Assembly (NCBI GenBank): GCA_021228405.1
Contig: JAJQRF010000001.1
Span: 434,001-498,000 of the forward strand
Direction of reading: 5' to 3'
DNA: 64,000 nucleotides
Source: Pyrinomonadaceae bacterium
GTDB lineage: Bacteria; Acidobacteriota; Blastocatellia; Pyrinomonadales; Pyrinomonadaceae
The position numbers and the translations under genes are program-made. The notes beneath the pieces are model-generated. The model was not told the DNA's origin. It saw nothing but the letters and a program-made list of their open reading frames with translations, and ran no database searches. Below, one piece after another: positions 2,420 to 54,501 of the stretch. Position 1 is the stretch's first letter. Every line of letters starts with the position of its first letter.

Positions 2420-3736
2420 ATGCAAAATAAAGAAATCGATTTTGAGCCGAACGAATCCTGTGCGCTCGCAATGGAGGCACAGGATTCGTTAAAACATTTC
2501 CGCGATAAATTTCACATTCCGAAACAGGCATCGGGCGAAGATGTCTTATATTTTACGGGAAATTCGCTCGGACTCCAGCCCCGAACGACGCGTGAATATA
2601 TCGAGCAGGAACTTGACGACTGGAAAAATCTCGGCGTTGAAGGACATTTTCACGCGGAAAATCCGTGGATGCCCTATCACGAATTTCTGACCGAAAAAAT
2701 GGCAAACGTCGTCGGTGCAAAGCCGCTCGAAACGGTCGTGATGAATTCCCTGACCGTCAATCTGCATCTTTTGATGGTTTCGTTTTATCGTCCGAACGGC
2801 AAACGCAACAAGATCGTGATCGAAAAAAATGCGTTTCCGTCCGATCAATATGCGGTCGCGTCACAGATCGCGTTTCACTCGAAAATTTCAAATTCTAAAT
2901 TCCAAATTCCGGATTCTAAAGAAAATCGTTTAATCGAGCTTGCGCCGCGTGACGGTGAAACGATCTTAAGGATCGAGGATATTGAAAAAGTTATCGAAGA
3001 AAACGGCGACGAAATCGCGCTCGTTTTGCTCGGCGGCGTAAATTATTACACCGGGCAAGCGTTTGATATGAAACGCATTACCGGGATCGGTCACAAAGCC
3101 GGTGCGGTCGTCGGGTTCGATCTGGCACACGCGGCGGGAAATCTGGAACTGCATTTGCACGATTGGAACGTCGATTTTGCGGCGTGGTGTTCGTATAAAT
3201 ATCTGAATTCGGGTCCGGGCGGCATCGCGGGCGTTTTCGTTCACGAACGTCACGCCGACGCTTTTGAGCTTCCGCGTTTTGCGGGTTGGTGGGGACACGA
3301 TAAGGAAACGCGCTTTTTGATGGACGACAAATTTATCCCGATGCGCGGCGCGGAAGGCTGGCAGTTGTCAAATCCGCCGATCTTTCAGCTTGCCGCCTTA
3401 CGCGCTTCGCTCGACATTTTTGAAGAAGCGGGAATGAAAAATCTGCGCGAAAAGTCCGTCAAACTGACAAATTATCTGGAATTTCTTTTAAACGAAATTC
3501 ACGACGAGCGAATCGGGATCATCACGCCAAGAGATTCAAAAGATCGCGGCTGTCAGCTTTCGATTCGTGTCAAAAATTCGGACAAAACTCTTTTCAAAGC
3601 TATTTCGGAACAAGGCGTGATCGCCGATTGGCGCGAACCCGACGTGATTCGTGTTGCGCCCGTTCCGCTTTATAATTCGTTTTCGGACGTTTGGAAATTT
3701 GCCGAAATTTTGAAGGATTGTTTAGCCGTAAAATAA
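2420..3736 (+). CDS. kynU: Kynureninase
   Basis: PLP enzyme that cleaves kynurenine or 3-hydroxykynurenine to (3-hydroxy)anthranilate plus alanine. The 438-residue protein has the family signatures FTGNSLGLQPR near the N-terminus, GVNYYTGQ, DLAHAAGNL and the PLP lysine K260 in WCSYKYLNSGPGG. Residues ~154-169 are an in-frame low-complexity insertion (FHSKISNSKFQIPDSKEN) encoded by AATTC-type 'word' repeats that kynureninases normally lack, probably a surface loop. It is followed by a strong terminator; an APH-like kinase and kmo come next on the same strand, so substrate and product enzymes are neighbours. Confidence 0.95.
   Translation: MQNKEIDFEPNESCALAMEAQDSLKHFRDKFHIPKQASGEDVLYFTGNSLGLQPRTTREYIEQELDDWKNLGVEGHFHAENPWMPYHEFLTEKMANVVGAKPLETVVMNSLTVNLHLLMVSFYRPNGKRNKIVIEKNAFPSDQYAVASQIAFHSKISNSKFQIPDSKENRLIELAPRDGETILRIEDIEKVIEENGDEIALVLLGGVNYYTGQAFDMKRITGIGHKAGAVVGFDLAHAAGNLELHLHDWNVDFAAWCSYKYLNSGPGGIAGVFVHERHADAFELPRFAGWWGHDKETRFLMDDKFIPMRGAEGWQLSNPPIFQLAALRASLDIFEEAGMKNLREKSVKLTNYLEFLLNEIHDERIGIITPRDSKDRGCQLSIRVKNSDKTLFKAISEQGVIADWREPDVIRVAPVPLYNSFSDVWKFAEILKDCLAVK
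2888..2923. repeat. In-frame 'word' repeat insertion inside kynU
   Basis: Iterated AATTCTAAATTCCAAATTCC-like phrase, read on the minus strand as GGAATTTGGAATTTAGAATT. It stays in frame and adds about 12-16 residues to kynureninase. The same phrase occurs in the SRPBCC gene at 21301-21341. Confidence 0.8.
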
Positions 3737-4994: not shown

Positions 4995-6365
4995 ATGGCA
5001 AAGGAAAAAGTAATCATTATCGGCGCAGGTCTTTCGGGTTCTCTGCTTGCAATTTATCTCGCCAAACGCGGTATCGAGTGCGAAATTTACGAGGCTCGCG
5101 GCGATATGCGTAAAGAAACAATGTCGGCAGGACGTTCGATCAATCTCGCGCTTTCCAATCGCGGAATCGCGGCGTTAAAGGAAGTCGGCTTGGATGAATA
5201 TATGTTGTCGGAAGCCGTTCCGATGTATGGACGAATGATTCACGACGTTCAGGGAAATCAAAAACTTCTGCCGTATTCAGGGAGAAAAGGCGAATATATC
5301 AACTCGGTTTCGCGTTCGGGATTGAACATCGCTTTGATGAATGAAGCCGAAAAATACGACGGCGTAAAATTCTTTTTCAATACGAAATGCGCCGAATTCG
5401 ACTGCAAAACGGGCGAAGCAAAACTCGAAAACGGCGAAGTCTTAAAAGGTGACTGTATCATCGGCACGGACGGCGCGGGTTCGGTCATCCGCAACGCGAT
5501 GCTGTCGGATTTTCCGCGTTTTAACTACTCGATTCAATGGCTCGAACACGGCTACAAAGAACTTCACATTCCGCCGAAGGATTTGGGATTTGGGAATTCG
5601 GATTCGGGATTGAAAAATTTCTCTGACGAATTGTTTCAAATGGAGAAAAATGCTCTGCACATCTGGGCGCGCGGTTCGTTTATGATGATCGCCTTGCCGA
5701 ATTTCGACGGAAGTTTTACCTGCACGCTTTTTCTCGCGCACAAAGGCGAAAACAGTTTCGAGCAATTAGTGGACGAAAAATCTTTGATGAATTTCTTTGA
5801 AACGAACTTTGCCGATTCGATTTCGCTGATGCCGACTTTGACGGAAGATTTTTTCACTAATCCGACGGGAAATCTCGGCACGGTCAAATGTTTTCCGTGG
5901 AATGTGGCTGGGAAGTCTTTGCTGATCGGCGATTCGGCACACGCCGTCGTGCCTTTTTACGGGCAAGGAATGAACGCTTCGTTTGAAGATTGCCGCATTT
6001 TGAATCAATTGATCGAACAACACGGAACGGATTGGGAAAAAGTTTTCAACGAATTTACCACCGTCAGAAAACCGAACGCCGACGCGATCGCGCAAATGGC
6101 GGAAGAAAATTTTTACGAAATGCGCGATGCCGTCGCCGATCCTGTTTTCCAGAAAAAACGCGAACTCGAAACCAAGCTCGAACAAACGTTTCCCGATTAT
6201 TTCTCGAAATATTCAATGGTCACTTTCCGCGAAGATTTGCCTTATTCGGTCGCCAAAGAAAAGGGCAACGCGCAGGATAAAATGCTGATGGAAATCTGTG
6301 CGGAAATTGATGATGTCAGCAAATTGGATTTGAATGAAATTTTTGAAAATGTAAAAACTATTTAG
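4995..6365 (+). CDS. kmo: Kynurenine 3-monooxygenase
   Basis: FAD- and NADPH-dependent hydroxylase converting L-kynurenine to 3-hydroxykynurenine. The 456-residue protein begins with the Rossmann motif IIIGAGLSGSLLAIYLAKRG, followed by the GRSINLALSNRG segment of the family, the FAD motif GTDGAGSVIR, and the second FAD motif LLIGDSAHAVVPFYGQGMNA. Residues ~195-207 (DLGFGNSDSGLKN) come from a GGATTTGGGATTTGGGA-type 'word' insertion. The last 27 codons are duplicated 913 bp downstream (7192-7272) around an HNH cassette, so this C-terminus (ENVKTI-stop) may be either the original or the substituted copy. Works with kynU, and possibly with the cyclase-family gene at 11378. Confidence 0.95.
   Translation: MAKEKVIIIGAGLSGSLLAIYLAKRGIECEIYEARGDMRKETMSAGRSINLALSNRGIAALKEVGLDEYMLSEAVPMYGRMIHDVQGNQKLLPYSGRKGEYINSVSRSGLNIALMNEAEKYDGVKFFFNTKCAEFDCKTGEAKLENGEVLKGDCIIGTDGAGSVIRNAMLSDFPRFNYSIQWLEHGYKELHIPPKDLGFGNSDSGLKNFSDELFQMEKNALHIWARGSFMMIALPNFDGSFTCTLFLAHKGENSFEQLVDEKSLMNFFETNFADSISLMPTLTEDFFTNPTGNLGTVKCFPWNVAGKSLLIGDSAHAVVPFYGQGMNASFEDCRILNQLIEQHGTDWEKVFNEFTTVRKPNADAIAQMAEENFYEMRDAVADPVFQKKRELETKLEQTFPDYFSKYSMVTFREDLPYSVAKEKGNAQDKMLMEICAEIDDVSKLDLNEIFENVKTI
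5579..5612. repeat. In-frame 'word' repeat insertion inside kmo
   Basis: GGATTTGGGATTTGGGAATT followed by CGGATTCGGGATTG, a phrase iterated about every 7 nt. In frame; it adds roughly 11-13 residues between two conserved parts of the monooxygenase. Confidence 0.75.
6279..6359 (+). repeat. Direct repeat, upstream copy (kmo 3' end)
   Basis: 81 bp, 74 of 81 identical to 7192-7272 with no gaps (repeat-to-repeat distance 913 bp). Encodes the last residues of kmo, from the motif MLMEICAEIDD onward. The copies flank the 127-residue and HNH genes. Confidence 0.95.
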
Positions 6366-8985: not shown

Positions 8986-9216
8986 CTAAAATAATCGTGT
9001 GAAGGAAAAAATATTCGGGCGAATATATTTTTTATTCACGCGATTATTTTTTATATTTGGACGATTATTTAAATTAGTCGCACGATTATTTTTTTCCGTC
9101 GCGTGACTATTTTTTATAATCGGACGATTATTTTTTTCCGTCACGTGACTATTTTTTCCGTCAGCGCGATTATAATTTCCGTTCACACGACTGAAAAACA
9201 TATTCACGTTAATATT
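8986..9216. repeat. 21-bp tandem array A (11 units)
   Basis: Exact 21-bp period from about 8986 to 9216 with no indels. Typical + strand units have the form TTTTTCCGTC-RCGTGACTATT or TTTTATAATC-GGACGATTATT. Most units contain a short dyad (ATAATCG-GA-CGATTAT, or GTCACGTGAC). It fills the gap between the 3' ends of two convergent genes. The frame stays open only because 21 is a multiple of 3. Edge units are degenerate. Confidence 0.9.
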
Positions 9217-11377: not shown

Positions 11378-12199
11378 ATGCTCTGTTCAATCCAATTAAA
11401 TAATCAAACTTTTCAAATTGATTCGGAAAAACCGCTAAACATTGCGATTCCGCTCGATTTTTACGGCGCACAGCCGAATGCTTACAATGTCGAACGCGCC
11501 GTGTCGAAACCTTGCGAAGCAGGCGAACTCGTCGGCGACACACGGCGCGGCGGAAGCTGTAATTTTGAACAAGTCGCGTTCATTCCGCATTGCAACGGCA
11601 CACACACCGAATGCGTCGGACATATCACGAACGAGCGAATTTCCGTCAACGATTGTCTGAAAGACGTTTTCATTTTCGCCGAATTGATTTCCGTTGTGCC
11701 CGAAAAAGCAAGCGAAACAAATGATTCCTACGTTGTTAAATTAAACGAAAACGATTCTTTAATCACAAAAAATGCACTCGAAAAAGCCCTGCAAAGTCCA
11801 AAGCCCGAAGACCAAAGCCCAAAGTCTTTAATCGTCCGAACGTTTCCGAACGACGATTCAAAACTTTCAAAAACATATCTCGACGAAATTCCGCCGTTTT
11901 TTTCGACCGAAGCGATGAGTTTTTTGAATGAGATCGGCATCGAACATCTGCTTGTCGATCTGCCTTCGATCGACCGCATCTTTGACGAAGGAAAGTTAAA
12001 TAATCATCGTATTTTCTGGAATGTCGAAGCGGAAAAGTTTGAGTTGAACGCGAAAAGTTTTCCGTATAAAACTGTTACCGAACTCATTTATATTTCAGAC
12101 GAAATCGCGGACGGCGAATATTTATTAAATCTCCAAATCGCGCCTTTCGCGGCGGATGCAAGCCCGAGCCGCCCGATCTTATTTCGCCTTATGAATTAG
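11378..12199 (+). CDS. Cyclase-family metal-dependent hydrolase (kynurenine formamidase-like)
   Basis: A 273-residue protein of the cyclase/KynB family. The metal-binding motif is seen as FIPHCNGTHTECVGHI (~66-81; family form HxGTHxDxxxH with Glu replacing Asp). A later conserved run, HLLVDLPSIDRIFDEGKLNN, holds an Asp and lies near the expected second metal ligand. Residues ~139-151 (QSPKPEDQSPKSL) come from a CCAAAGCCC-type 'word' insertion. KynB hydrolyses N-formylkynurenine to kynurenine, so this gene could complete the route to kmo and kynU 5 kb away; other cyclases act on unrelated esters or amides, so that role is an inference. Confidence 0.8.
   Translation: MLCSIQLNNQTFQIDSEKPLNIAIPLDFYGAQPNAYNVERAVSKPCEAGELVGDTRRGGSCNFEQVAFIPHCNGTHTECVGHITNERISVNDCLKDVFIFAELISVVPEKASETNDSYVVKLNENDSLITKNALEKALQSPKPEDQSPKSLIVRTFPNDDSKLSKTYLDEIPPFFSTEAMSFLNEIGIEHLLVDLPSIDRIFDEGKLNNHRIFWNVEAEKFELNAKSFPYKTVTELIYISDEIADGEYLLNLQIAPFAADASPSRPILFRLMN
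11792..11826. repeat. In-frame 'word' repeat insertion in the cyclase gene
   Basis: Iterated CAAAGTCCAAAGCCC / GAAGACCAAAGCCCAAAG phrase, in frame, adding about 12 residues. The ACCAAAG phrase recurs in the nadB and aroDE insertions. Confidence 0.7.
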
Positions 12200-13375: not shown

Positions 13376-14272
13376 CTATTTCACCGCAGTTTCCAACGCT
13401 TCTTTCAAAGTCGGATGTTTGAATTGGTAGCCGAAATCGGTCAGTCGTTTCGGCAAAACCCTGGTCGAATCGAGTAAAAGCGCATCGCCCATTTCGCCGA
13501 AAACCAGGTTTACGGCAAATTCGGGCAAAGGCAAAATCGTCGGTCTGGAAATCACTGCGCCGAGCGTTTTGGTAAATTCTTCGTTGGTTGCGGGATTCGG
13601 TGCGGTTGCGTTGATCGCACCACGCACGTTTTCGTTTTCGAGCGCGAAATTGAAGATTTCGATCTCGTCTTCCAACGAAATCCAGCTCATCCATTGCTTA
13701 CCGCTACCGACCACGCCGCCGACTCCGAGCTTGAACGGCGTGAGCATTTGTCCGAGCGCGCCGCCTTCTTTCGCCAAAACTACGCCCGTTCTGACCAAAA
13801 CCGTGCGGATTCCCAAATCTTCGGCGCGGCGTGCTTCGGCTTCCCATTCGGCACAGGTTTTCGCCAGGAACGTATCGCCCGCCGCGCTCAATTCGGTCAA
13901 TTCTTCATCGGCGCGGTCGCCGTAAAAACCGATCGCCGACGATGAAACGAAAACCTTCGGTTTGTTGGCGAGTTTCGAGAAAGCATCAACCAAAGACCTT
14001 GTTCCGAAAATGCGCGAATCGCGTATTTTTCGTTTCTTCTCTTCCGACCAACGCCCCGTGATGGTTTCGCCAGCGAGATGCACGACCGCATCGACCGATT
14101 CAAGACGCGGCAAATCTTCTTCGCGGAACCCCTTTTCGATATTCCAGTAAATTTGATTGTCCTTTTCGGGTTTATGCCGCGTCGCCAACAGCAATTCGTG
14201 ACCTTTTGCAAGAAAAGATTTTTGCAGATTTTCGCCAAGCAATCCGCTTGCGCCGGTAATTAATATCTTCAT
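13376..14272 (-). CDS. TIGR01777-family NAD(P)-binding epimerase (YfcH-like)
   Basis: A 298-residue extended short-chain dehydrogenase. Rossmann motif ITGASGLLGENL at residues 4-15, the VDAVVHLAGETI segment (~62-73), the YfcH-type GRWSEEKKRKIRDSRI run (~75-90) and SSSAIGFYGDRADEELTE, containing the catalytic Tyr region, identify the TIGR01777 family. It probably acts on a nucleotide sugar or a lipid-like substrate, but none is known. Its C-terminal DUF1731-type end (LPEFAVNLVFGEMGDALLLDSTRVLPKRL) is complete. Monocistronic between inverted repeats P5 and P6. Confidence 0.93.
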   Translation of the reverse strand: MKILITGASGLLGENLQKSFLAKGHELLLATRHKPEKDNQIYWNIEKGFREEDLPRLESVDAVVHLAGETITGRWSEEKKRKIRDSRIFGTRSLVDAFSKLANKPKVFVSSSAIGFYGDRADEELTELSAAGDTFLAKTCAEWEAEARRAEDLGIRTVLVRTGVVLAKEGGALGQMLTPFKLGVGGVVGSGKQWMSWISLEDEIEIFNFALENENVRGAINATAPNPATNEEFTKTLGAVISRPTILPLPEFAVNLVFGEMGDALLLDSTRVLPKRLTDFGYQFKHPTLKEALETAVK

Positions 14273-14276
14273 AGTT

Positions 14277-14395
14277 CATTTATCATTCAACATTTATCAT
14301 TCAACATTTGCTATTTATTATTTATAAAAAACCCCATCTTGTCGCAGATTGATTTATGAATGTTCAATAAATGATAAATGATAAATGATAAATCT
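14277..14395. repeat. Inverted 'word' repeat P6 (ATTTATCATTCAAC)
   Basis: Left side iterates ATTTATCATTCAAC, right side iterates AAATGATAAATGATAAATGA after TGAATGTTCAA, forming a long AT-rich inverted repeat between the epimerase start and the cytochrome c stop. Confidence 0.8.
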
Positions 14396-14761
14396 TCACT
14401 GTCCTCTCAAATCTTTGTAAACGAAATCAGTCATCAACTGTATCTCCCGTGCCGAAAGCGTGCGGTTAAAGGGAAGCATACCGTTGCCGCCTTCGGAGAT
14501 TTGCTTGTAGATTTGTTCGGGCGTTTTAAATTTGAAATCGCCTGTCCGCAAACTCGGCACGAGTTTGCCGTCGGTTAAGGTTTTCCCTTCGCCTTCGGGT
14601 CCGTGACAGAGCGCACAATGCTGGCGATAGATCGAAACCTCGTATTTTTTGCTTTCCGCGATCACGAAAGTCTTTCGGTCTTCGCCCGCACAAGCAAGCA
14701 GAACGAAAACCGCAAAGAGCGCGATGATTGATAATTTGACTCTGAGCATATCCGAAAACAT
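14396..14761 (-). CDS. Monohaem cytochrome c, lipoprotein
   Basis: A 121-residue c-type cytochrome. The signal ends in a lipobox (FVLLACAG, ~18-25), so the protein should be lipid-anchored facing the periplasm. The haem-binding site is HCALCHGPEGEG (~48-59), with axial Met in GNGMLPFNRTLS (~91-102), as in class I cytochromes and alcohol-dehydrogenase-type domains. Small size suggests an electron carrier for a dehydrogenase or oxidase encoded elsewhere. The start ATG could also be five codons in (MLRVK). It stands alone upstream of the acyl-CoA ligase gene on the same strand but ~140 nt away from it. Confidence 0.9.
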   Translation of the reverse strand: MFSDMLRVKLSIIALFAVFVLLACAGEDRKTFVIAESKKYEVSIYRQHCALCHGPEGEGKTLTDGKLVPSLRTGDFKFKTPEQIYKQISEGGNGMLPFNRTLSAREIQLMTDFVYKDLRGQ

Positions 14762-18091: not shown

Positions 18092-19663
18092 TCAAAAATT
18101 TATCTTTTCGCTCGAAGAAATTTCCGCACCGAGTTTCTGGATCGAGTGAACGCGAAATCTTTCATCGCGTTCGGGAAAATCATTACGAAAATGTCCGCCG
18201 CGCGATTCTTCACGCCAAAGCGCACCTTTTGCAACCAACTTTGCAAGCGTCACGAAATTGCGCGAAGAAATGCTCAGATTTGCCTTTTCGATCTGTCTGA
18301 ATTCCTGCAAAGCCCGATTCAGCGAATCTTTATCGCGCAAAATCCCGACACGTTCCCACATTACGCGTTTGACGCGCTTTTTCACGGCAGTCGCAATTCC
18401 TTCCGAAGGCTGGTCTTTGGTCTTTGGCTTTTGGTCTTCGTCGGTCGATTTTCCACTTTCCACTTTCCACTTTCCGTTATCAGTTATCATCGCTTCGCCC
18501 GCTCTCGCGCCGAAAACCAGACCTTCGAGCAGTGAATTTGAAGCCAGCCGATTTGCGCCGTGAACGCCCGTGCAGGTGACTTCGCCCGCCGCGTAAAGCC
18601 CCGCGACGGTCGAACGCCCGTGCAGATCGGTGCGGATTCCGCCCATACAATAATGCGAAGCGGGCGAAACAGGCAACAAATCTTTGGCGATGTTCAGATC
18701 GTAAAATTTACAGGTTTCATAGATTTTCGGAAATCTTTCCTTCAAATACTCTTCAGAAAGCGCGGTCATATCGAGAAAAACGTGGCGCGTTCCCGTTTTT
18801 CGCATCTCGGCAACGATCGAACGCGAAACGATGTCGCGCGGTGCGAGTTCGAGCCGTTCATCGTAATTTCCCATAAAACGCTCGCCGAATTTGTTTCGTA
18901 AAATTCCGCCTTCGCCGCGCATCGCTTCACTCAATAAAAAGCGCGGCGCGTTTTCGAGATTGAGTGCGGTCGGGTGAAACTGCACGAATTCCATATCAGC
19001 CATTTCCGCACCCGCAAAATACGCCATCGCCATTCCGTCGCCCGTCGCGACACTCGGATTCGTCGTGTGCAGATAAAGCTGTCCTGCGCCGCCCGTGCAG
19101 AGAATTACGCCTTTTGCGAAAATCTCACGCGGTGCACGCAGAATCGGGTCGAGAAACCGCACGCCGACGCATCTGCCTTCGTGCAAGATCAAACTTTCCG
19201 TATTTGCAAACGGCATCAGAAAGATTCGTTTTTCCTGCCGTGCGCGGGCGATCAGAGCGCGGACGATTTCTTTTCCCGTCGAATCGCCGTGCGCGTGCAA
19301 AATCCTTCTGCGCGAATGCGCGGCTTCCTGCGTGAAAACCAATTTTCCGCCTTCGCGGTCAAATTCGGTTCCCCATTCGATCAGTTGTTTGATATATTTC
19401 GTGCCGCCCGTGACGAGCGTTTCGACCGCTTCCGTATCGCAAAGTCCCGCGCCCGCGACCAAAGTATCTTCTTCGTGAAGCTCGGCATTATCGTCATCCG
19501 ATAAAACGACCGCCACGCCGCCCTGCGCGTATTCCGTATTTGATTCCGAGGCTTTATCCTTTGTCAGAACCGTCACCCGCGCTCCCGACTTTGCCAATTC
19601 GATCGACGCACGAAGTCCGGCAACGCCGCTGCCGATCACAATATAATCCGTTTCCAATGCCAT
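18092..19663 (-). CDS. nadB: L-aspartate oxidase
   Basis: FAD enzyme oxidising L-aspartate to iminoaspartate, the first step of de novo NAD synthesis with NadA. The ATG at 19663 (MALETDYIVIGSG) is chosen; an in-frame extension to 19750 has no family match. Motifs: IVIGSGVAGLRASIELAKSG dinucleotide fold, the SNTEYAQGGVAVV segment, the AHSRRRILHAHGD substrate region and HYCMGGIRTDLHGRST FAD motif. Total ~523 residues. Residues ~392-418 are a 'word' insertion (NGKWKVESGKS then QKPKTKDQ) lying after the conserved FAD domain. Its presence beside kynurenine genes means two potential routes to quinolinate. Confidence 0.95.
   Translation of the reverse strand: MALETDYIVIGSGVAGLRASIELAKSGARVTVLTKDKASESNTEYAQGGVAVVLSDDDNAELHEEDTLVAGAGLCDTEAVETLVTGGTKYIKQLIEWGTEFDREGGKLVFTQEAAHSRRRILHAHGDSTGKEIVRALIARARQEKRIFLMPFANTESLILHEGRCVGVRFLDPILRAPREIFAKGVILCTGGAGQLYLHTTNPSVATGDGMAMAYFAGAEMADMEFVQFHPTALNLENAPRFLLSEAMRGEGGILRNKFGERFMGNYDERLELAPRDIVSRSIVAEMRKTGTRHVFLDMTALSEEYLKERFPKIYETCKFYDLNIAKDLLPVSPASHYCMGGIRTDLHGRSTVAGLYAAGEVTCTGVHGANRLASNSLLEGLVFGARAGEAMITDNGKWKVESGKSTDEDQKPKTKDQPSEGIATAVKKRVKRVMWERVGILRDKDSLNRALQEFRQIEKANLSISSRNFVTLAKLVAKGALWREESRGGHFRNDFPERDERFRVHSIQKLGAEISSSEKINF
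18411..18490. repeat. In-frame 'word' repeat insertion inside nadB
   Basis: Three phrases in a row: TGGTCTTTGGTCTTTGGCTT, then TTCCACTTTCCACTTTCCAC, then GTTATCAGTTATCATC. The last phrase is the same as in the intergenic repeat at 35907-35963. In frame; adds about 27 residues. Confidence 0.85.
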
Positions 19664-19733
19664 ACTTGAAATTGTGAACTTTCGTTTGAAAAAATTCAAA
19701 TTTAAGGGCATCGTAATTGCTTGAAACAAAAGT

Positions 19734-21146
19734 ATGAACGCCGATTTCAAAGAAAAACCTCAGAATCATGAAAAATATTTGCAGGAAGCGAAAAGATATT
19801 TGCCGAATGCAAATGAATCCGAACTTCGCGCCTTTGCCGAAAGACAGCTTTCAGCAAGACGGCGCGTTTGGAAATTAAAAAAATTTTACGGCGAAAATTT
19901 TTGCAGGCTGACGCGGCTACATCTGCTTGCGGCTTGCGCGATCTCTTTGGGAAGATTTTGCGGCGTTTCCAGGGTTTTCGATGAGATCGGCGAATCTTTG
20001 ATGCCCGTTGATGATGATCTCAGACCGACCAGTGAGGATTGGAAAATCTATGCGCAAGCGTGTCAAAACAAAATGCCGGTTGAAGTTTGCGACGAACTCT
20101 GGCTGACCGCGCATTTCAAAGACATCGAACGCGTCCGCACTAAAAATTTGGAAGAAAAGTTTTACGCCGAATCCGCGCTTCACAAAAACGAACCGATATG
20201 GCTTTTACTGAAACAACATCTGGAAGTGACGCTGGGCGTTCGCCTAATGGACCGATCGGCGATTGCCGGACTGATTCCGCACGAAACGGCGATTGCCGAC
20301 AGTTTGAGTTTGACCGTCAAAAAACTTTCGACCGCCGGCATCCAACTCGTCGGGCGTTATGTCAATGAAAGTTTTCGCGCCGTTTTCGATCTTTCAAATG
20401 AGTCGGACAAAGAAATACTTACTTATCGGCAAAACGCTTTCGATATGACGCGATATTTTTTCCTGTCGCTTTCCGTTTCAAAGATATTCCGGCGCGGAAT
20501 TCGTGAACGCGAACGCGGAAGCCGTGCCGAAAGCGATCATTGGAATCTGCTCGAAACGGTTTTAGGCGAACGCGTTGCGGAGATTGACCCGCTGATTCGT
20601 GAATTTTACGGAAATCCGTCGCGCTTCGATGTCACGGCAACTTTAAAGCTCGAAACCTTACCCGCGAAAATCTGGTCGCGGCTTTTGACTTTGATCTTCG
20701 GGCAGGGTTTGTTTGAAACAAATTTAGAGAAAATTCCCGCCCGTTTCCGCATCTTCAAACGCCGCGACGGTTCGATGCACTTTATCCGCGAGCTTTACTG
20801 CAACGGCAAATACCGTGTTTTCGATTCGGATTTCGTCGTCGAAAACGGCAAACTTTACGAGGTTTTCAAAGACTTGAACGCGTCGGTCGAAATGCACGTT
20901 TCACCGCTCGAAGATCGCGGTTTGTCGATCTTGGGAAAGAAAATTTTGTTTCACGGCAAAACAATGCCGTCAATCGGTTTGACGGTCGAATTTCAAAGCC
21001 GCGTCGAAAATGAAATATTAAAAATAGACGGTCGTTTGCAGATGAAACCGAAAACGAAATTCGGCAGGTTTTTCGCCCGCAAAGTTCTGCAAAGACCGCA
21101 AAATCTCGGAAGCATTCACTATGTCGCCCGACGTAAAACCGCTTGA
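19734..21146 (+). CDS. Hypothetical protein with DUF4166-like C-terminal domain
   Basis: A 470-residue protein in two parts. Residues 1-280 are mainly helical with many Arg/Glu and no recognised motif. Residues ~290-465 resemble DUF4166: LGERVAEIDPLIREFYGNPSRFDVTA at its start, then LPAKIWSRLLTLIFGQGLF, a KRRDGSMHFIRELYC strand pair and GLTVEFQSRVENEILKIDG. DUF4166 domains are often found near SRPBCC-type proteins, and one (21119-21802) is encoded head-on right after it with 28 bp of 3' overlap. No signal peptide. Function unknown; the domain assignment is from pattern memory. Confidence 0.65.
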   Translation: MNADFKEKPQNHEKYLQEAKRYLPNANESELRAFAERQLSARRRVWKLKKFYGENFCRLTRLHLLAACAISLGRFCGVSRVFDEIGESLMPVDDDLRPTSEDWKIYAQACQNKMPVEVCDELWLTAHFKDIERVRTKNLEEKFYAESALHKNEPIWLLLKQHLEVTLGVRLMDRSAIAGLIPHETAIADSLSLTVKKLSTAGIQLVGRYVNESFRAVFDLSNESDKEILTYRQNAFDMTRYFFLSLSVSKIFRRGIRERERGSRAESDHWNLLETVLGERVAEIDPLIREFYGNPSRFDVTATLKLETLPAKIWSRLLTLIFGQGLFETNLEKIPARFRIFKRRDGSMHFIRELYCNGKYRVFDSDFVVENGKLYEVFKDLNASVEMHVSPLEDRGLSILGKKILFHGKTMPSIGLTVEFQSRVENEILKIDGRLQMKPKTKFGRFFARKVLQRPQNLGSIHYVARRKTA

Positions 21147-21802
21147 AAAGCCGGGGTTAAATTTGTTTCCTGACCGCTCCCGATCCAGCTTTCCGCTTCG
21201 CCTTTTTTCGGCGGAAACCCGAAATATCTTTTGAGCAAGAACGGAATAAAACTCAAATACGAGCGGCGTTTTTTCAATAATCCATCAATTTCAGAGGATT
21301 GATTTTCCAATTTGGAATCTGAAATCTGGAATTTGGAATCCGCACACCAGCGGCGCAAAGTTTCAAAACTCCATTCGGTTGCCAACTGCATTACCGGGCG
21401 AAATAGAACGCGGTCGATCATTTTACCGAAAACGCCGTAATTCGTTTCGTAATCGTAAACCGTGCGGAAATAAGTTCCTTTCGCGCAAGGTTTGTATTGC
21501 CAGATTCCGCGCCCGATCTTGATGAGCGATTTCCAATCGTCCGATCCAAATTCAAATGTCGAATGTTTCAAAGGCGTGTTTTGCAAATAACGCCCGGTTC
21601 CCTTTATTTCCATTCCGAAACCGATCTTTGTGCGGTAATCCATCAGTTGAAAACCTTTTTCGTCCGCTTCTTCGAGATATTCGATGTGCGAAAAACGAAT
21701 GTCCCAGAGAATATGCAGACCGGGATTTTGCGAACGTTCCCAGAGCGTTTCGACCGCGCACGGAATGATTGCTTCGACGACGATTTTATTTGATTTTTTC
21801 AC
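21119..21802 (-). CDS. SRPBCC-family (START/Bet v1-like) protein
   Basis: About 227 residues. GTG at 21802 is chosen as start because it overlaps the stop of the upstream membrane-protein gene (GTGA), giving translational coupling. The SRPBCC pattern is VVEAIIPCAVETLWERSQNP at the N-terminus, strands with DYRTKIGFGMEIKGTGRY and TYFRTVYDYETNYGVFGKMI, then a long C-terminal helix FRPVMQLATEWSFETLRRWC lining a hydrophobic pocket. Residues ~154-168 are a 'word' insertion (DSKFQISDSKLENQSSEI). Such proteins bind lipids or other hydrophobic ligands. Its 3' end overlaps that of the DUF4166-like gene by 28 bp. Confidence 0.8.
   Translation of the reverse strand: MKKSNKIVVEAIIPCAVETLWERSQNPGLHILWDIRFSHIEYLEEADEKGFQLMDYRTKIGFGMEIKGTGRYLQNTPLKHSTFEFGSDDWKSLIKIGRGIWQYKPCAKGTYFRTVYDYETNYGVFGKMIDRVLFRPVMQLATEWSFETLRRWCADSKFQISDSKLENQSSEIDGLLKKRRSYLSFIPFLLKRYFGFPPKKGEAESWIGSGQETNLTPAFQAVLRRAT
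21301..21341. repeat. In-frame 'word' repeat insertion in the SRPBCC gene
   Basis: GATTTTCCAATTTGGAATCT then GAAATCTGGAATTTGGAATC: the GGAATTTGGAAT phrase also found in the kynU insertion. In frame, between the fold and the C-terminal tail. Confidence 0.8.
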
Positions 21803-22335
21803 GCGTTCACCTCGACATTTTTCGGTTGAAAATTCAGCCATTTATAGAGATCGTAAAAGAAATTCATAAACGCGATAAAGCCCATTGCCGTCATATAAAC
21901 CTGTAAAATGAAAGGAATTTGCGGCGGCGAGTAAACGATTGCCGTTGCAAGATGGCGGTCGCTCCAAACTGTCTGAAAGGTCGCCATCATATAAAGCCCG
22001 ACGAGCACGCTCAGAACGACGTGCATAAAATATTCGCCGCGCGGCAGTCCGCCCTGTGCCTTACGGCTCGCGTTTTCTTCCCAAACGTCCGCCCAGGCAA
22101 CAAAAACATCGCACGCATAAAGTAGTAATAAAAACGCCAAAGCGGCGCCGTGAAAACGGAAATTTGCCACCCAGATAAATTGCAACGCGTAGATCAAATG
22201 ACGGCAAACGTGCCAGAAAACTTCGCGCTGGCATTCGGGGCGCAGATGAAGCTTGCATTTGTAAATGTGAAAATACAGAACGTCGAAAACGCCGAGATGC
22301 GCGATGATTAAAAGCAGATAAAATGAAGTTTCCAT
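21799..22335 (-). CDS. Conserved membrane protein, about five TM segments
   Basis: A 178-residue integral membrane protein: METSFYLLLIIAHLGVFDVLYF (TM1), a His/Cys-rich loop (HIYKCKLHLRPECQREVFWHVCRH), LIYALQFIWVANFRFHGAALAFLLLLYACDVFVAW (TM2-3), GEYFMHVVLSVLVGLYMMATF (TM4) and IPFILQVYMTAMGFIAFMNFFY (TM5). Several conserved-looking His, Cys, Asp and Glu residues next to the membrane could bind metal or be catalytic, as in membrane di-iron enzymes, but no box is complete. Translationally coupled to the SRPBCC gene (4-bp overlap), suggesting a shared hydrophobic substrate. Family not recognised. Confidence 0.7.
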   Translation of the reverse strand: METSFYLLLIIAHLGVFDVLYFHIYKCKLHLRPECQREVFWHVCRHLIYALQFIWVANFRFHGAALAFLLLLYACDVFVAWADVWEENASRKAQGGLPRGEYFMHVVLSVLVGLYMMATFQTVWSDRHLATAIVYSPPQIPFILQVYMTAMGFIAFMNFFYDLYKWLNFQPKNVEVNA

Positions 22336-28405: not shown

Positions 28406-28636
28406 TCCGTGGAGAATCTGCATTTCTCCGTGGAGAATCTGAAATTCTCCATTCAGAATTCAGGATTCTCCACGGAAAATTTGAAATTCTCCATTCATAA
28501 TCTGCGTTTCTCCGTGGAGAATTTGAAATTCTCCATTCAGAATTTGCGTTTCTCCATTCACAATCCGCGATTCTCCGTGGAGAATTTGAAATCCTCCATT
28601 CAGAATTCAGGATTCTCCACGGAAAATTTGAAATTT
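28406..28636. repeat. 21-bp tandem array B (11 units)
   Basis: Eleven consecutive 21-bp units with no indels, of forms such as TCCGTGGAGA-ATTTGAAATTC and TCCATTCAGA-ATTCAGGATTC. Unit junctions make dyads TTCTCC-GT-GGAGAA and GAATTT-G-AAATTC. Period 21 leaves an open frame that spells heptads like SVENLKF and SIQNSGF, but a start context and codon signal are missing, so it is treated as non-coding. Between the TPR gene and era. Confidence 0.93.
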
Positions 28637-35029: not shown

Positions 35030-35908
35030 ATGAGCAACGAACAAAAATTTTGGTATGTGATCGATGTGACGGCGCGACCTGAAACGGCGGAAGCGATCGA
35101 ATTTGCGATGAACGAACTCGACGCGCTCGGCACGGAGATCAACAATTTACGCAAAAAACAGGACGAACCGATTCGCGTTTCAGGTTATTTCGACAATGAA
35201 CCCGACGAAGAAAATCTGCGTTTGCAGATCAATGAAGCCCTGCGGATTTACGGCTTTACGCCCGATGCCGTGTCGCTCATCGAATGGCGCAGACTGGGCG
35301 ATGTCGATTGGCTTTACAACTGGAAACAGCATTGGAAACCGACCGAAACGGGCAGATTTATCGTTTCGCCGACGTGGGAAACGCCCGAAGATTCCGACAA
35401 AATTATCGTTTACATCGACCCGAATATGGCTTTCGGCACGGGCACGCACGAAACGACGCGTCTTTGTCTGCTCGCCGTCGAAGCAAACTATCGAAACGGG
35501 ATGACACTGCTCGATGTCGGCACGGGAACGGGCATTTTAGCCATCGGCGCACGAAAATTTGCTGACGATAAAACGCCGCGCTTCGTCGGTTGCGACACGG
35601 ACGAAAACTCCATTGTCATCGCCAGAGAAAACGCCGAACTGAACGGGATCGACAACATCGAATTTTACGTAGGTTCGATCAATGAAACGACCGCAAACGC
35701 CGATTTCGTTCTCGCCAATCTGACGATCGATGTCATCACGCCGCTTTTGCCCTTATTGCTCGGCAAGTTCAACAAAGTTCTTATTTTATCGGGAATTTTG
35801 CAGGAACAGGAAACTGTTATCATCGAAGAATTGCAAAAATTCGGTATCGAAAACGCCGAAATAAATCATTCGGGCGAATGGATTTCAGTCACAATCGACA
35901 AGCGATAA
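35030..35908 (+). CDS. prmA: Ribosomal protein L11 methyltransferase
   Basis: AdoMet-dependent trimethyltransferase of ribosomal protein L11. The 292-residue protein has an N-terminal ferredoxin-like domain (~1-75), a linker with LYNWKQHWKPTETGRFIVSP, the PrmA-specific FGTGTHETTRLCLLAVE run (~138-154), motif I LLDVGTGTGILAIGARKF (~163-180), and the catalytic-side VLANLTIDVI (~226-235). Length and order are standard. The stop codon is the beginning of a short inverted repeat (35907-35963) shared with the 3' end of the YCF48 gene. Confidence 0.95.
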   Translation: MSNEQKFWYVIDVTARPETAEAIEFAMNELDALGTEINNLRKKQDEPIRVSGYFDNEPDEENLRLQINEALRIYGFTPDAVSLIEWRRLGDVDWLYNWKQHWKPTETGRFIVSPTWETPEDSDKIIVYIDPNMAFGTGTHETTRLCLLAVEANYRNGMTLLDVGTGTGILAIGARKFADDKTPRFVGCDTDENSIVIARENAELNGIDNIEFYVGSINETTANADFVLANLTIDVITPLLPLLLGKFNKVLILSGILQEQETVIIEELQKFGIENAEINHSGEWISVTIDKR

Positions 35909-35963
35909 CGGATAACTGATAACTGAAGTTTCTCGTTATCAATTATCCGTTATCAGTTATCAT
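35907..35963. repeat. Inverted 'word' repeat P8 (GATAACTGATAAC)
   Basis: Left GATAACGGATAACTGATAAC, right GTTATCAATTATCCGTTATC then AGTTATCATC. It supplies the stop codon of prmA on one side and the final Asp-Asp-Asn-stop of the convergent YCF48 gene on the other. The same phrase occurs in frame within nadB. Confidence 0.85.
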
Positions 35964-37938
35964 CTTTTTTCGGCGGCGGCGAAGCAAGCGGAATATCGCC
36001 GTCGTCGGTGATCGTGACGAGCGGCTGGCGGATTTTCGGTTTAACTTTTGCAGTTCCGATCTTCAAGGTCGGCGGAATTTTCGCCGAAGACGTGGTTTTA
36101 ACAGTCGATAGAACTTCCGAACGTTTCAGAATCGCACCGCCGCGCCCGACGATCCAGAGGTCTGTCCCGCCGAGATAAACGACCGCCTGCAACGCGTTGC
36201 TCGTCACATTTGCCTGTGTTTCCCAGGTTTTCCCGCCGTCTTCCGTCCGCAAAACCGAGCCGAGTTCGCCGACCGCGATCGCTTGCAAACGTCCGTATGA
36301 TGTAACCGCAAAAAGATTCGTTTTGACGGGCGATTCCTGATCTATCCAGGTTTCGCCGCCGTCTTCCGTCCGCAGGATCGTGCCCGACGCACCGACCGCA
36401 AAACCCGTTTTCGCATCGAAAAACGAAACGGCGTAAAGATTTTCTTTTAGATTCGTCTTGATTTTCGTCCAGGTTTCGCCGCCGTCCGGGGTTTTCAAAA
36501 TCGTTCCGCGATCACCGATCACAACACCGTTCTTTTCGTCGGTAAACTTCACATCTTCGAGCCAGAAACGCGTGCCGGATTCGACAACTTCCCAATACGC
36601 GCCGCCCGAAACTGTTTTAACGATCATTCCGTTCGCGCCGACCGCAAAGCCCGTTTTTTCATTGACGAAATAAACGCCCGAAAGGTCTTCGGTGATATTT
36701 GAAATTCCTTTTCCCCAGCTTGCACCGCCGTTGATCGTGCGGACGACCGTTCCTTTGTCGCCGACCGCCCACCCCTTTTCCGCGCTTACGAAATTCAGTG
36801 CGTTGAGATTTTCCGTCGTGTCCGAAAAAACCGGAAGCCACATTTTTCCGCCGTCGTTGGTGAGCCAAATGCGCCCGCGCGAACCGACCGAAACGCCGAA
36901 TTCTTCGTTGAAAAGTGCGATGTCGTTAACGTCTTCGCGTCCGCCTTCGCTCAATCTCTGCCAGGAATAACCGCCGTCATCGGTGCGGACGATCAGACCG
37001 CTTTCACCGACCGCCCAACCCGTAAAACTGTCGGCAAAATAAAGCGAAACAAGCTTCGGATTTGTCCGCACGTTAAACGGCAGCCACGTGTTTCCGCCGT
37101 CCCCTGTCAGCCAAACCATCCCATTGGCATCGGTCATCGAGCCGTTTTTCTCGCCGGAAAAGCTGACGGCAAGAAAATCCGCGCGGCTGTAAACATTGAT
37201 GCGCGTCCAGGTTTCGCCCGCATCTTCGCTTCGCGCCACGCAACCGCCGTAACCGATCGCGACGATCTTTTCAGCCGAAATAAACGCCGCGCTCGAAATC
37301 AACGACGCGCCGCAAGGCTGATCTGTTTTCCAATTTTCACCGCCGTTTTTGGTCGTCAGAACGATGCCGTTTTGCCCGACGATGACGGCTTTTTCAGCAT
37401 CGAAAGCCGAAACTTTGAGCAAATGTTCCCTGTTTTCAACCTTCTTGCTTTGCCACGTCAACCCGCCGTCGACGGTTTTCAAAATGCTTCCGTAAGTCCC
37501 GACGGCAAAGCCCGTCTGAAAATTTTCGCCCGTGAAATTTACGCCGTAAAGATGATCTTTCGTGTCGGTTTGCCCGGTTTTCCAATCTTTTCCGCCGTTG
37601 TCGGTTAAAAGAATCGTCCCGCGCGCGCCGACGATCACGGCGTTTTTCTTATCGCGCACGAAAACGGAAGAAAGCGTCGTATCGGTCGGCGAAGTTTGCC
37701 GAAGCCATTTGAAACCGCCGTTTTCGGTGCGCAGAATCGTATTATCCGCGCCGACCGCAAAGCCGTTTTCCTTATCCTTTGCAAAATGTATCGCATAAAG
37801 CGGATTTCCCTGCGGTAAAGGATTCTGCCACGTCCAGCCGAGGGCGTTGCGTTTCTGAGGAAAAGCGAAAGAATAGCCACAAAAAAGCACAAAAAGCGCA
37901 AAAATGACTTTTAAAAATTTGTGTTTATCCGTGTGCAT
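35953..37938 (-). CDS. Secreted YCF48/BNR-repeat propeller protein
   Basis: A 661-residue protein with a signal-like N-terminus (LKVIFALFVLFCGYSFAFPQ). The body is about 13 repeats of ~41 residues, each with a GFAVGANGMI-type strand and an ILRTEDGGETW-type turn, forming beta-propellers like the photosystem II assembly factor YCF48 and BNR-repeat proteins. In heterotrophs such proteins are extracellular scaffolds of unknown role. The last ~50 residues are basic and proline-rich, ending PLASPPPKKDDN, of which DDN comes from the repeat P8. The start codon sits in a GTGCATCTGTGGTTAA phrase of the same 'word' type, so the true start might be slightly downstream. Confidence 0.85.
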   Translation of the reverse strand: MHTDKHKFLKVIFALFVLFCGYSFAFPQKRNALGWTWQNPLPQGNPLYAIHFAKDKENGFAVGADNTILRTENGGFKWLRQTSPTDTTLSSVFVRDKKNAVIVGARGTILLTDNGGKDWKTGQTDTKDHLYGVNFTGENFQTGFAVGTYGSILKTVDGGLTWQSKKVENREHLLKVSAFDAEKAVIVGQNGIVLTTKNGGENWKTDQPCGASLISSAAFISAEKIVAIGYGGCVARSEDAGETWTRINVYSRADFLAVSFSGEKNGSMTDANGMVWLTGDGGNTWLPFNVRTNPKLVSLYFADSFTGWAVGESGLIVRTDDGGYSWQRLSEGGREDVNDIALFNEEFGVSVGSRGRIWLTNDGGKMWLPVFSDTTENLNALNFVSAEKGWAVGDKGTVVRTINGGASWGKGISNITEDLSGVYFVNEKTGFAVGANGMIVKTVSGGAYWEVVESGTRFWLEDVKFTDEKNGVVIGDRGTILKTPDGGETWTKIKTNLKENLYAVSFFDAKTGFAVGASGTILRTEDGGETWIDQESPVKTNLFAVTSYGRLQAIAVGELGSVLRTEDGGKTWETQANVTSNALQAVVYLGGTDLWIVGRGGAILKRSEVLSTVKTTSSAKIPPTLKIGTAKVKPKIRQPLVTITDDGDIPLASPPPKKDDN

Positions 37939-42017: not shown

Positions 42018-42332
42018 TGAACTCCTTTTACTCCGAAGGGAGTTCCTTCTGAACCAAAAGGAGTTCCCGCTGAATAAAAAGGAGTTCCTTCTGCACTAAA
42101 AGGAGTTCCCGCTGAATAAAAAGGAGTTCCTTCTGAACTAAAAGGAACTCCTTCTGTTATAAAAGGAGTTCCTTCTGAACCAGAAGGAACTCCCGCTGAA
42201 CCAAAAGGAACTCCTTTTAGTGCAGAAGGTGTTCCCGCTGAACCAAAAGGAACTCCTTTTAGTGCAGAAGGTGTTCCCGCTGAACCAAAAGGAACTCCTT
42301 CTGTTATAAAAGGAGTCCCTTTTTATTCGGTC
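42018..42332. repeat. 21-bp tandem array C (15 units)
   Basis: Fifteen 21-bp units without indels. Each begins with an 8-nt core GGAGTTCC or its complement GGAACTCC (once GGTGTTCC), followed by a 13-nt segment such as TTCTGAACCAGAA (a dyad) or CGCTGAACCAAAA. The core flips between the two orientations along the array, and two-unit blocks (42207-42248 and 42249-42290) are repeated exactly. Lies between the 3' ends of convergent genes. Confidence 0.94.
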
Positions 42333-45093: not shown

Positions 45094-45126
45094 AAGAAGC
45101 GTGGTTATTGTAAAGTAAACGTTGAA

Positions 45127-45212
45127 AAGTTAAAAGTGCAAAGTTAAAAGTTAAAAGTTAAAAATCCCGAAGCCACTTTTTTAATTTTTAACTTTTAACT
45201 TTGCACTTTTAT
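45127..45212. repeat. Inverted 'word' repeat P9 (AAGTTAAAAGTT)
   Basis: Left AAAGTGCAAAGTTAAAAGTT repeated, right TTAACTTTTAACTTTGCACT. Lies between the DUF4097-like gene and the kinase gene; the DUF4097-like stop codon is at its end. Confidence 0.85.
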
Positions 45213-54234: not shown

Positions 54235-54501
54235 TTAACCGAAAATTTCGTTTAAGAATTTGTAAATTTTCGTGTAAACGGTTTCTTCCGTTTCTGTCGG
54301 TTGCTGACTGACTAAACCGGTCGTTTGCCCTTGCGGAGAGGTTTTACCTCCACCGATCGGAGTAATGCCGTCTCCGGTAAAACAGGTCGTTTGTCCCTGA
54401 GGACAGGTTTTACTTCCGCCGATCGGAGTAATGCCGTCTCCGGCAAAGGCTGACAGACTCAAAACGAAAGACAAAGTGAACAGAATAATGATTTTTTTCA
54501 T
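54235..54501 (-). CDS. Secreted two-repeat peptide precursor, 88 residues
   Basis: Sec signal MKKIIILFTLSFVLSLSAFA with a clean Ala-x-Ala site, after which the mature part would start GDGITPIGG. The unit GDGITPIGG-x-KT-x-PQGQTT occurs twice, 22 residues apart (first copy with Cys at two positions, second with Ser/Gly). The tail is acidic and aromatic (TETEETVYTKIYKFLNEIFG). Not a known family. The gene is divergent from a TPR/Fis-type regulator, 102 nt between starts. The repeated, secreted, short product beside a TPR regulator suggests a signalling or bacteriocin-like peptide; inference only. Confidence 0.75.
   Translation of the reverse strand: MKKIIILFTLSFVLSLSAFAGDGITPIGGSKTCPQGQTTCFTGDGITPIGGGKTSPQGQTTGLVSQQPTETEETVYTKIYKFLNEIFG

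Follow-up and report, generated by a model that had tools for sequence, protein, structure and literature searches.

Turnover of heptamer words in a fixed register of the NadB linker and heptamer tracts in other enzyme genes of a Pyrinomonadaceae genome

Heptamer arrays in the window and its genome

The window is a 64,000-nt stretch of a genome of 5.72 Mb in 20 contigs, whose nearest NadB relatives in the named collections are Pyrinomonadaceae and Blastocatellia MAGs of the phylum Acidobacteriota. Arrays of 7-nt units were detected inside seven genes and in three intergenic regions of the window:

2879-2920, plus strand: tract of AAATTCC-type units in kynU (gene 2420-3736), 10 aa longer than in five of eight aligned relatives
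5579-5621, plus strand: tract of GGATTTG-type units in kmo (gene 4995-6365), a 14-aa gain
11792-11824, plus strand: tract of CCAAAGC/CCAAAGA units in a cyclase-family gene (11378-12199)
14270-14400, intergenic: inverted heptamer arrays of ATAAATG and CATTTAT units (fold z -2.8)
18412-18490, minus strand: linker of heptamer units in nadB, encoding L-aspartate oxidase (gene 18092-19750)
18412-18436, minus strand: nadB block 2, GACCAAA-type units in the same orientation as block 1
18446-18478, minus strand: nadB block 1, AACGGAA AGTGGAA AGTGGAA AGTGGAA AATCG, in a register common to 24 other species
21301-21340, minus strand: tract in a gene named SRPBCC by an earlier note (21119-21841)
35903-35970, between convergent genes: hairpin with TAACTGA/TAACGGA units in both arms, then T6 (fold z -7.0)
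44062-44095, minus strand: block 2 of a kinase gene (42355-45093), AATCCAA units
44147-44172, minus strand: block 1 of the same kinase gene, GTGGTCA/GTGGTCG units
45106-45210, intergenic: hairpin of AAAAGTT units (fold z -6.75)
59592-59621, plus strand: tract of ACCAAAA/ACCAAAG units in aroDE (58374-59915)

Pfam domains were found for six of the seven host genes: kynureninase (kynU), FAD monooxygenase (kmo), cyclase (the cyclase-family gene), L-aspartate oxidase FAD and C-terminal domains (nadB), protein kinase with TPRs (the kinase gene), and 3-dehydroquinase and shikimate dehydrogenase (aroDE). The SRPBCC-named gene had no Pfam match.

The earlier note had described these tracts as repeated phrases of a 7-nt type that keep the reading frame, and both descriptions stand: every tract lies inside an open frame, and runs at lags 7 and 14 are far above those at other spacings in the window. 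Exact self-match runs of at least 9 numbered 10 at lag 7 and 11 at each of lags 14 and 21, the lag-21 count being due in part to separate 21-nt intergenic arrays, while control lags from 2 to 30 mostly gave 0-3 runs (lag 12 gave 7). In 464 kb of the window genome, 39 lag-7 runs of at least 9 were detected (8.4 per 100 kb), compared with a mean of 0.8 per 100 kb for eight other lags; lags 14 and 21 were raised as well. Although the sample was about 85% coding, 25 of the 39 arrays lay outside predicted genes and 14 inside. Exact 7-nt periodicity is a genome-wide property of the window genome. The 39 arrays use 20 different words, including AAAATCC, AAATCCG, AACTGAT (TAACTGA rotated), AAAGACC, AACGGAT and AAAAGTT, and no single word is favoured.

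The two longer phrases that the earlier note had found to be shared between sites were confirmed against expected counts from shuffles. The nadB phrase GTTATCAGTTATCATC has two copies in the window, one in nadB at 18476 and one in the intergenic repeat at 35949 (0.00 expected), and GGAATTTGGAAT is common to kynU (2899-2910) and the SRPBCC-named gene (21328-21339; 2 copies, 0.09 expected). The shorter ACCAAAG, also proposed as shared vocabulary, is at chance level, with seven matches in the window against 5.95 expected.

The window also contains three intergenic satellites with a 21-nt period (42 and 63 as higher orders) at 9015-9192, 28406-28635 and 42019-42321. Each has a different sequence, comparable to the constant-size, variable-sequence pattern at 20-21 nt in Bacillus. 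At 54314-54447, a 66-nt unit is present as a tandem duplicate (88%).

The NadB linker across the family

The alignment of the NadB linker, which follows the FAD domain, covered 81 genomes of the family; five of the 86 NadB-bearing genomes (G001, G064, G070, G077 and G104) gave partial matches and were left out. Twenty-five of the 81 linkers passed the array threshold, a block-1 lag-7 identity of at least 0.62, and the same threshold at lags 4, 5, 6, 8, 9 and 10 was passed by 0, 0, 0, 0, 2 and 0. In a NadB tree built without the linker, all 25 array-bearing rows fell in one Pyrinomonadaceae clade of 62, the other 37 members of which were below the block-1 threshold. The 25 species span eight genera.

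Block 1 follows directly on a GAY (Asp) codon, with GAG instead in two rows, and consists of (ARTNNNR)x4 and then a partial unit. Its register was recovered in 25 of 25 rows by a leave-one-out profile from the other 24, with L032 offset by one codon by hand in the register alignment. One fixed register across genera argues for a tract that is inherited and then rewritten, not for a new insertion in each species. Linker length differed little, with a median of 105 nt with an array and 102 nt without (p 0.15). The earlier note had named two observations that would count against insertion, gap-free alignment of the loop to unrelated species and conservation of its residues in homologues from distant taxa. 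The NadB loop does align without gaps, whereas its residues are not conserved and change wholesale with the word. The tract sites are loops, as that note had supposed, and they vary among homologues.

The register was constant and the words were not. Seventeen words were found in the 25 species: AATTACG in six, AATTCCA, AGTTCAG and AGTTCCG in two each, and 13 singletons, including AGTGGAA, the word of the window's own NadB. Identity of units within arrays was 0.855 (150 unit pairs), a value inflated by the selection of rows on lag-7 identity, compared with 0.533 for same-position units between species (1200 pairs). Column permutation gave a mean of 0.543 and a maximum of 0.579 in 1000, and units cut at 5, 6, 8 or 9 nt had identities of 0.19-0.25. 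Per-position identity was.81-.90 within arrays and.86,.47,.90,.47,.25,.40 and.37 between species, so that generality across species is confined to A1 and T3. At this orthologous coding site, words turn over in concert and locked to one register, with no systematic change in length, and it is this frame-preserving turnover, rather than insertion, that is the notable part of the locus.

The encoded peptides are alike (D[NS]xKFxVxSxKS), as might be expected if a repetitive, flexible peptide were selected at the protein level. This explanation is the least probable of those considered. A period of 7 is not a multiple of three, so amino-acid selection cannot make it; successive units fall in different reading frames, so a codon effect hardly explains why A1 and T3 are general whatever their codon position; and array-free homologues have unrelated residues at this place. 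Phase variation by other short repeats is known in pathogens, and a unit length that is not a multiple of three would suit loci at which slippage gain or loss of 7-nt units switches genes on and off. Such a role is nevertheless very improbable here, given that none of the 86 NadB matches of the family has an internal stop, that the number of block-1 units is nearly constant, and that the hosts are biosynthetic enzymes.

Structure was considered as a further cause, with the arrays as hairpin arms kept for an RNA or DNA function, as terminator stems between genes and perhaps in regulation inside them. The three intergenic arrays listed above fold far better than shuffles, at the z values given there, and the hairpin at 35903-35970, with T6 between convergent genes, is likely a terminator of TAACTGA-type units; it was not listed by a simple terminator scan of the window. 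An inverted partner was present within 130 nt of 33 of 87 intergenic arrays, compared with 4 for each control. Complementary blocks at z below -3 were detected in 10 of the 25 NadB array linkers and in one of 37 array-free linkers, judged against reversed and shuffled controls that still leave array-free linkers weakly affected (mean z -0.84), and 27 of 31 bases match between the NadB arms of G050, the matches extending to unit variants. In the remaining 15 arrays, which include that of the window (z -0.7), the arms are not complementary at z below -3, so pairing is not required for the coding tract, and folding of the window's own nadB and kinase tracts was not significantly above shuffles (z -1.5 and -0.2). 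Selected structure is improbable as the general cause of the arrays; pairing may help arms to copy each other, or may serve between genes. Co-variation of the arms was also assessed by permuting blocks among species (0 of 5000) and was discarded as confounded because array-free linkers pass too (0 of 5000), probably owing to common base composition.

Tracts in the other enzyme genes

The earlier note had proposed that each gene carries an in-frame addition of 10-37 residues and that alignment with homologues would fix the borders of these insertions. Two genes fit this proposal. The first loop of Kmo was counted in 24 genomes, several of which are represented by two loci of one gene and were counted once, and it measured 21 aa between anchors in 13 genomes, 22 aa in one and more in ten; the window's own loop has 35 aa. 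The sister genome in the NadB tree, G058, carries a heptamer tract at the same kmo position with the word GGATTTC instead of GGATTTG. KynU was aligned for nine of 12 genomes, three distant ones (28-32% identity) being excluded, and the loop has 35 aa in the window genome, 25 aa in five of eight aligned relatives and other inserts in the remaining three. Judged from these alignments, the loops are truly longer than in most relatives, by 10 aa in KynU and by 14 aa in Kmo.

In NadB, AroDE and the cyclase, no gain was found, since loops free of repeats are about as long as those with them, and the proposal that all seven tracts are fresh insertions is not borne out. All nine cyclase homologues (from 12 genomes) were aligned; loop lengths with and without repeats overlap, and other species have other words at the same place. 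AroDE, represented by 36 rows out of 103 genomes with a match, repeats the NadB pattern. Local lag-7 identity was at least 0.75 in 11 of the 36 rows, compared with 0-1 at lags 5, 6 and 8-13, and the words at one place were AGTTCAA (G013), AATTACC (G023), AATTCAA (G005) and ACCAAAA/ACCAAAG (the window genome, G059 and G060). Loop lengths with and without repeats overlap here as well; the loop of the window's AroDE exceeds most others by about five residues, and so do those of G059, G060, G051 and G048.

The kinase loop was variable (44-75 aa) in all 16 homologues aligned of the 27 matches listed, and heptamers were present in four of the 16 (the window's own, its own paralogue, G023 and G005), with differing words. 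No homologue of the SRPBCC-named gene was found in the 11 relatives searched, so that the borders of an insertion could not be set.

The reading of the earlier note, a mobile heptamer element that invades in frame by a separate insertion in each gene, draws support from the gains in kmo and kynU over short-loop relatives and from the REP-like palindromes that occupy the same Kmo and KynU loops in other genera, which indicate that these loops do receive insertions. For NadB it is refuted as a general account, with one register shared by 25 of 25 species from eight genera. Repeats do not go with longer loops in NadB, AroDE or the cyclase, the tracts showed neither a target-site duplication nor an element boundary, and words that differ between sites and species have no common consensus. 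Overall, such invasion is quite unlikely.

In-frame palindromic inserts recur in the Kmo and KynU enzyme loops of sister genera. REP-like palindromes (GTCAGAACCGCCTGCGTGAGCGGGTGG and an inverted mate) were found in the kmo loops of G013, G059, G060, G076, G071, G097 and G042 (rows L080, L292, L299, L301, L302, L298 and L303), in tandem in G076, and a palindrome of the GTCAGAACCGCCTGCGTGAGCGGGTGG type lies in frame in the KynU loop of G013 (L067). A second palindromic element, of the CCCCTCCTTCCGAAGGAGGGGTGG type, is in frame in kmo of G072 (L306) and kynU of G008 (L065). The palindromic elements of Rickettsia are longer repeats that enzyme loops accommodate in frame, and the REP-like Kmo inserts resemble them more than the heptamers do.

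Word turnover and its possible causes

Comparisons among units and between related species indicate how the NadB words change. Patterns among the four units were uniform in 129 cases, 3:1 in 35, 2:2 in eight and 2:1:1 in three, where independent hits would give about 0.8 splits of 2:2. In the pair G060/G059 (92.6% identity in the rest of the protein), block 1 is nearly the same and block 2 consists of AAATCCA x4 versus CAATCCG x5 at equal linker length. The mixed array of G052, CAATCCG AAATCCG AAATCCA AAATCCA, contains both of these words and an intermediate, and mixed and graded arrays are seen in rows L113, L119 and L118. In G102/G075 (95.8%), the unit AGTCTCA is at position 2 versus position 3. 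The number of letters common to consensus words drops with divergence (6.33, 4.95, 4.21, 3.96 and 3.83 of 7). The window's own AGTGGAA differs from AATTACG of its nearest array-bearing relatives at five of seven letters in all units, with no intermediate found; no congener of the window genome was found, and a single copying event is therefore not seen. If the units are taken as a small conversion family, a rough estimate puts copying between a given pair at about five times the point-mutation rate, a figure biased upward by the choice of arrays for their periodicity.

The reading that we prefer, with moderate confidence, is that the NadB array is ancestral to the Pyrinomonadaceae clade and that its units are overwritten at constant length by copying after a 7-nt misalignment, a step that we infer. 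The tracts would be heptamer arrays of the intergenic kind, housed in protein loops that tolerate change. The growing strand would misalign by one 7-nt unit back or forward, copy a part and realign, or an equivalent short template switch would occur; in some species copying may also proceed from an inverted arm. A stray substitution would thereby become shared, period, register and length would be kept, and words would drift species by species, with the units within a gene changing together. Gain or loss of a single unit shifts the frame and would be removed by selection, which would leave length-neutral copying. New sites such as those in kmo and kynU may arise more rarely, when a permissive loop gains an array. 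Several points weigh against this reading: with 37 of the 62 clade members below the block-1 threshold, an ancestral array requires many erosions, large word jumps without intermediates fit block replacement equally well, and in G040 and G013 the NadB array does not follow array density in the genome (see below).

Block replacement is the main rival to unit-to-unit copying. Other arrays in the genome would serve as the source of whole arrays, which would enter the loop by ectopic conversion or template switching, and the word would be replaced at once. The words in genes match the intergenic vocabulary of the genome (TAACTGA, AAAGACC and AAAATCC), and this vocabulary is limited by clade and genome. 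TAACTGAx3, with 10 matches in the window genome and none for the reversed control, was present in only 13 of 162 class genomes, all of one family; it is absent from genus g9, although G072 and others of that genus are rich in other heptamers. The large jumps without intermediates are as expected from replacement, and replacement of the whole region is favoured by the authors of work on the Nostoc trnL P6b stem, as given in the portion cited here (PMC4476775). Against it stand the mixed and graded arrays and the decay of word similarity with divergence. NadB register and length are also kept while words share about four of seven letters, too little for ordinary homologous exchange. We regard block replacement as possible and, on balance, doubtful.

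GTTATCAGTTATCA, the reverse complement of TAACTGA, had 26 matches in the window genome. The 10 overlapping TAACTGAx3 matches (C2, C4, C6 and C18) were all on the plus strand of the contigs as given, with none in reverse, and G013 had 12 versus 1. The orientation of contigs is arbitrary, yet C4 alone has four separate TAACTGAx3 sites on one strand.

The form ARTNNNR, first read off NadB, fits 87 of 142 arrays in samples of 17 genomes in any rotation and on either strand. It accounts for 22 of 39 arrays in G000 (a sample that includes the window and hence the NadB tract), 9 of 11 in G044 and 19 of 27 in G072, compared with shares of 0.25, 0.32 and 0.18 expected from composition; TAACTGA falls outside it. 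Avoidance of self-structure was rejected as a rule for words (tandem -5.42 versus shuffled -6.20 kcal/mol, p 0.13, 63 words). Array density varied from 0 to 26.7 per 100 kb across the 17 genomes and was loosely correlated with the NadB tract (Spearman 0.57, p 0.017, a statistic that ignores relatedness). Exceptions were G040, which is array-rich (23.8 per 100 kb) with none in NadB, and G013, which has a NadB tract and few arrays elsewhere. An index of genome-wide activity that explains NadB arrays is suggestive only.

The tracts belong with known heptamer repeats, here extended to orthologous enzyme loops. TAACTGA direct repeats were described in marine Beggiatoaceae, Cyanobacteria and Bacteroidetes (MacGregor, 2015; PMC4679880), and in the cited portion of that work Acidobacteriota are not among the hosts. 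The same heptamer occurs here, and in both cases the repeats are mostly intergenic, with some inside ORFs in the stop-free orientation, and are mixed with other heptamers in some genomes. The ORF copies described there lie for the most part at the ends of proteins or in hypothetical proteins of short length, whereas ours are in internal loops of core enzymes. The BOGUAY genome has a single favoured word (PMC4679880), compared with 20 words in 39 arrays in the window genome, and in contrast to that work, as far as cited, orthologous sites were compared here and reveal word turnover in a fixed register. Heptamers are the commonest category in most repeat-rich genomes, with polymerase contact length as a proposed cause (Mrazek, 2007, as cited in PMC4679880); as cited there, that study is a census of arrays, and concerted change at coding sites is not mentioned.

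Another parallel is the heptanucleotide stem P6b of the Nostoc trnL intron, where the words TDNGATT and NNTGAGT replace each other between lineages (Kaasalainen, 2015; PMC4476775). As in NadB, one orthologous site has a constant 7-nt unit and alternative words, and by our own reading both Nostoc motifs fit ARTNNNR on one strand. The Nostoc stem, as described in the portion cited, is intron RNA under a base-pairing constraint, with two word classes and variable length, whereas NadB is coding, has 17 words and keeps its length, and most NadB arrays show no pairing at z below -3. In Bacillus, constant-size, variable-sequence tandem repeats with units of 20-21 and 52 nt were reported (Subirana and Messeguer, 2021; PMC8161180). 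They likewise combine a fixed unit length with free sequence; the cited part of that report contains no comparison of orthologous sites, and the repeats studied here have 7-nt units inside genes. A literature search that barely covered subscription journals found no work on heptamers of Acidobacteriota, nor on coding genes in which heptamers change in concert.

We also considered that a trans-acting activity restricted to certain lineages, in the form of a polymerase, a reverse transcriptase or a repair complex that works in 7-nt steps, might write and rewrite ARTNNNR words genome-wide, inside and outside genes, and we think this unlikely. If it were true, genomes with the activity would be array-rich and their NadB units homogeneous, both features would be missing from sister species that lack the activity, and the ARTNNNR grammar would explain the Nostoc intron words too.

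To our knowledge, bacterial tandem repeats that keep their unit size and not their sequence have been noted and have no accepted explanation. In a conserved enzyme gene, unlike in intergenic arrays, frame and flanks are fixed and dozens of homologues can be set on a tree. With NadB, word changes can be mapped onto the tree and copying can be told apart from insertion, and a responsible gene can be sought by comparing genomes that show the behaviour with genomes that do not. A caution also follows for proteins of this kind, as their low-complexity loops can reflect copying at the DNA level rather than protein function.
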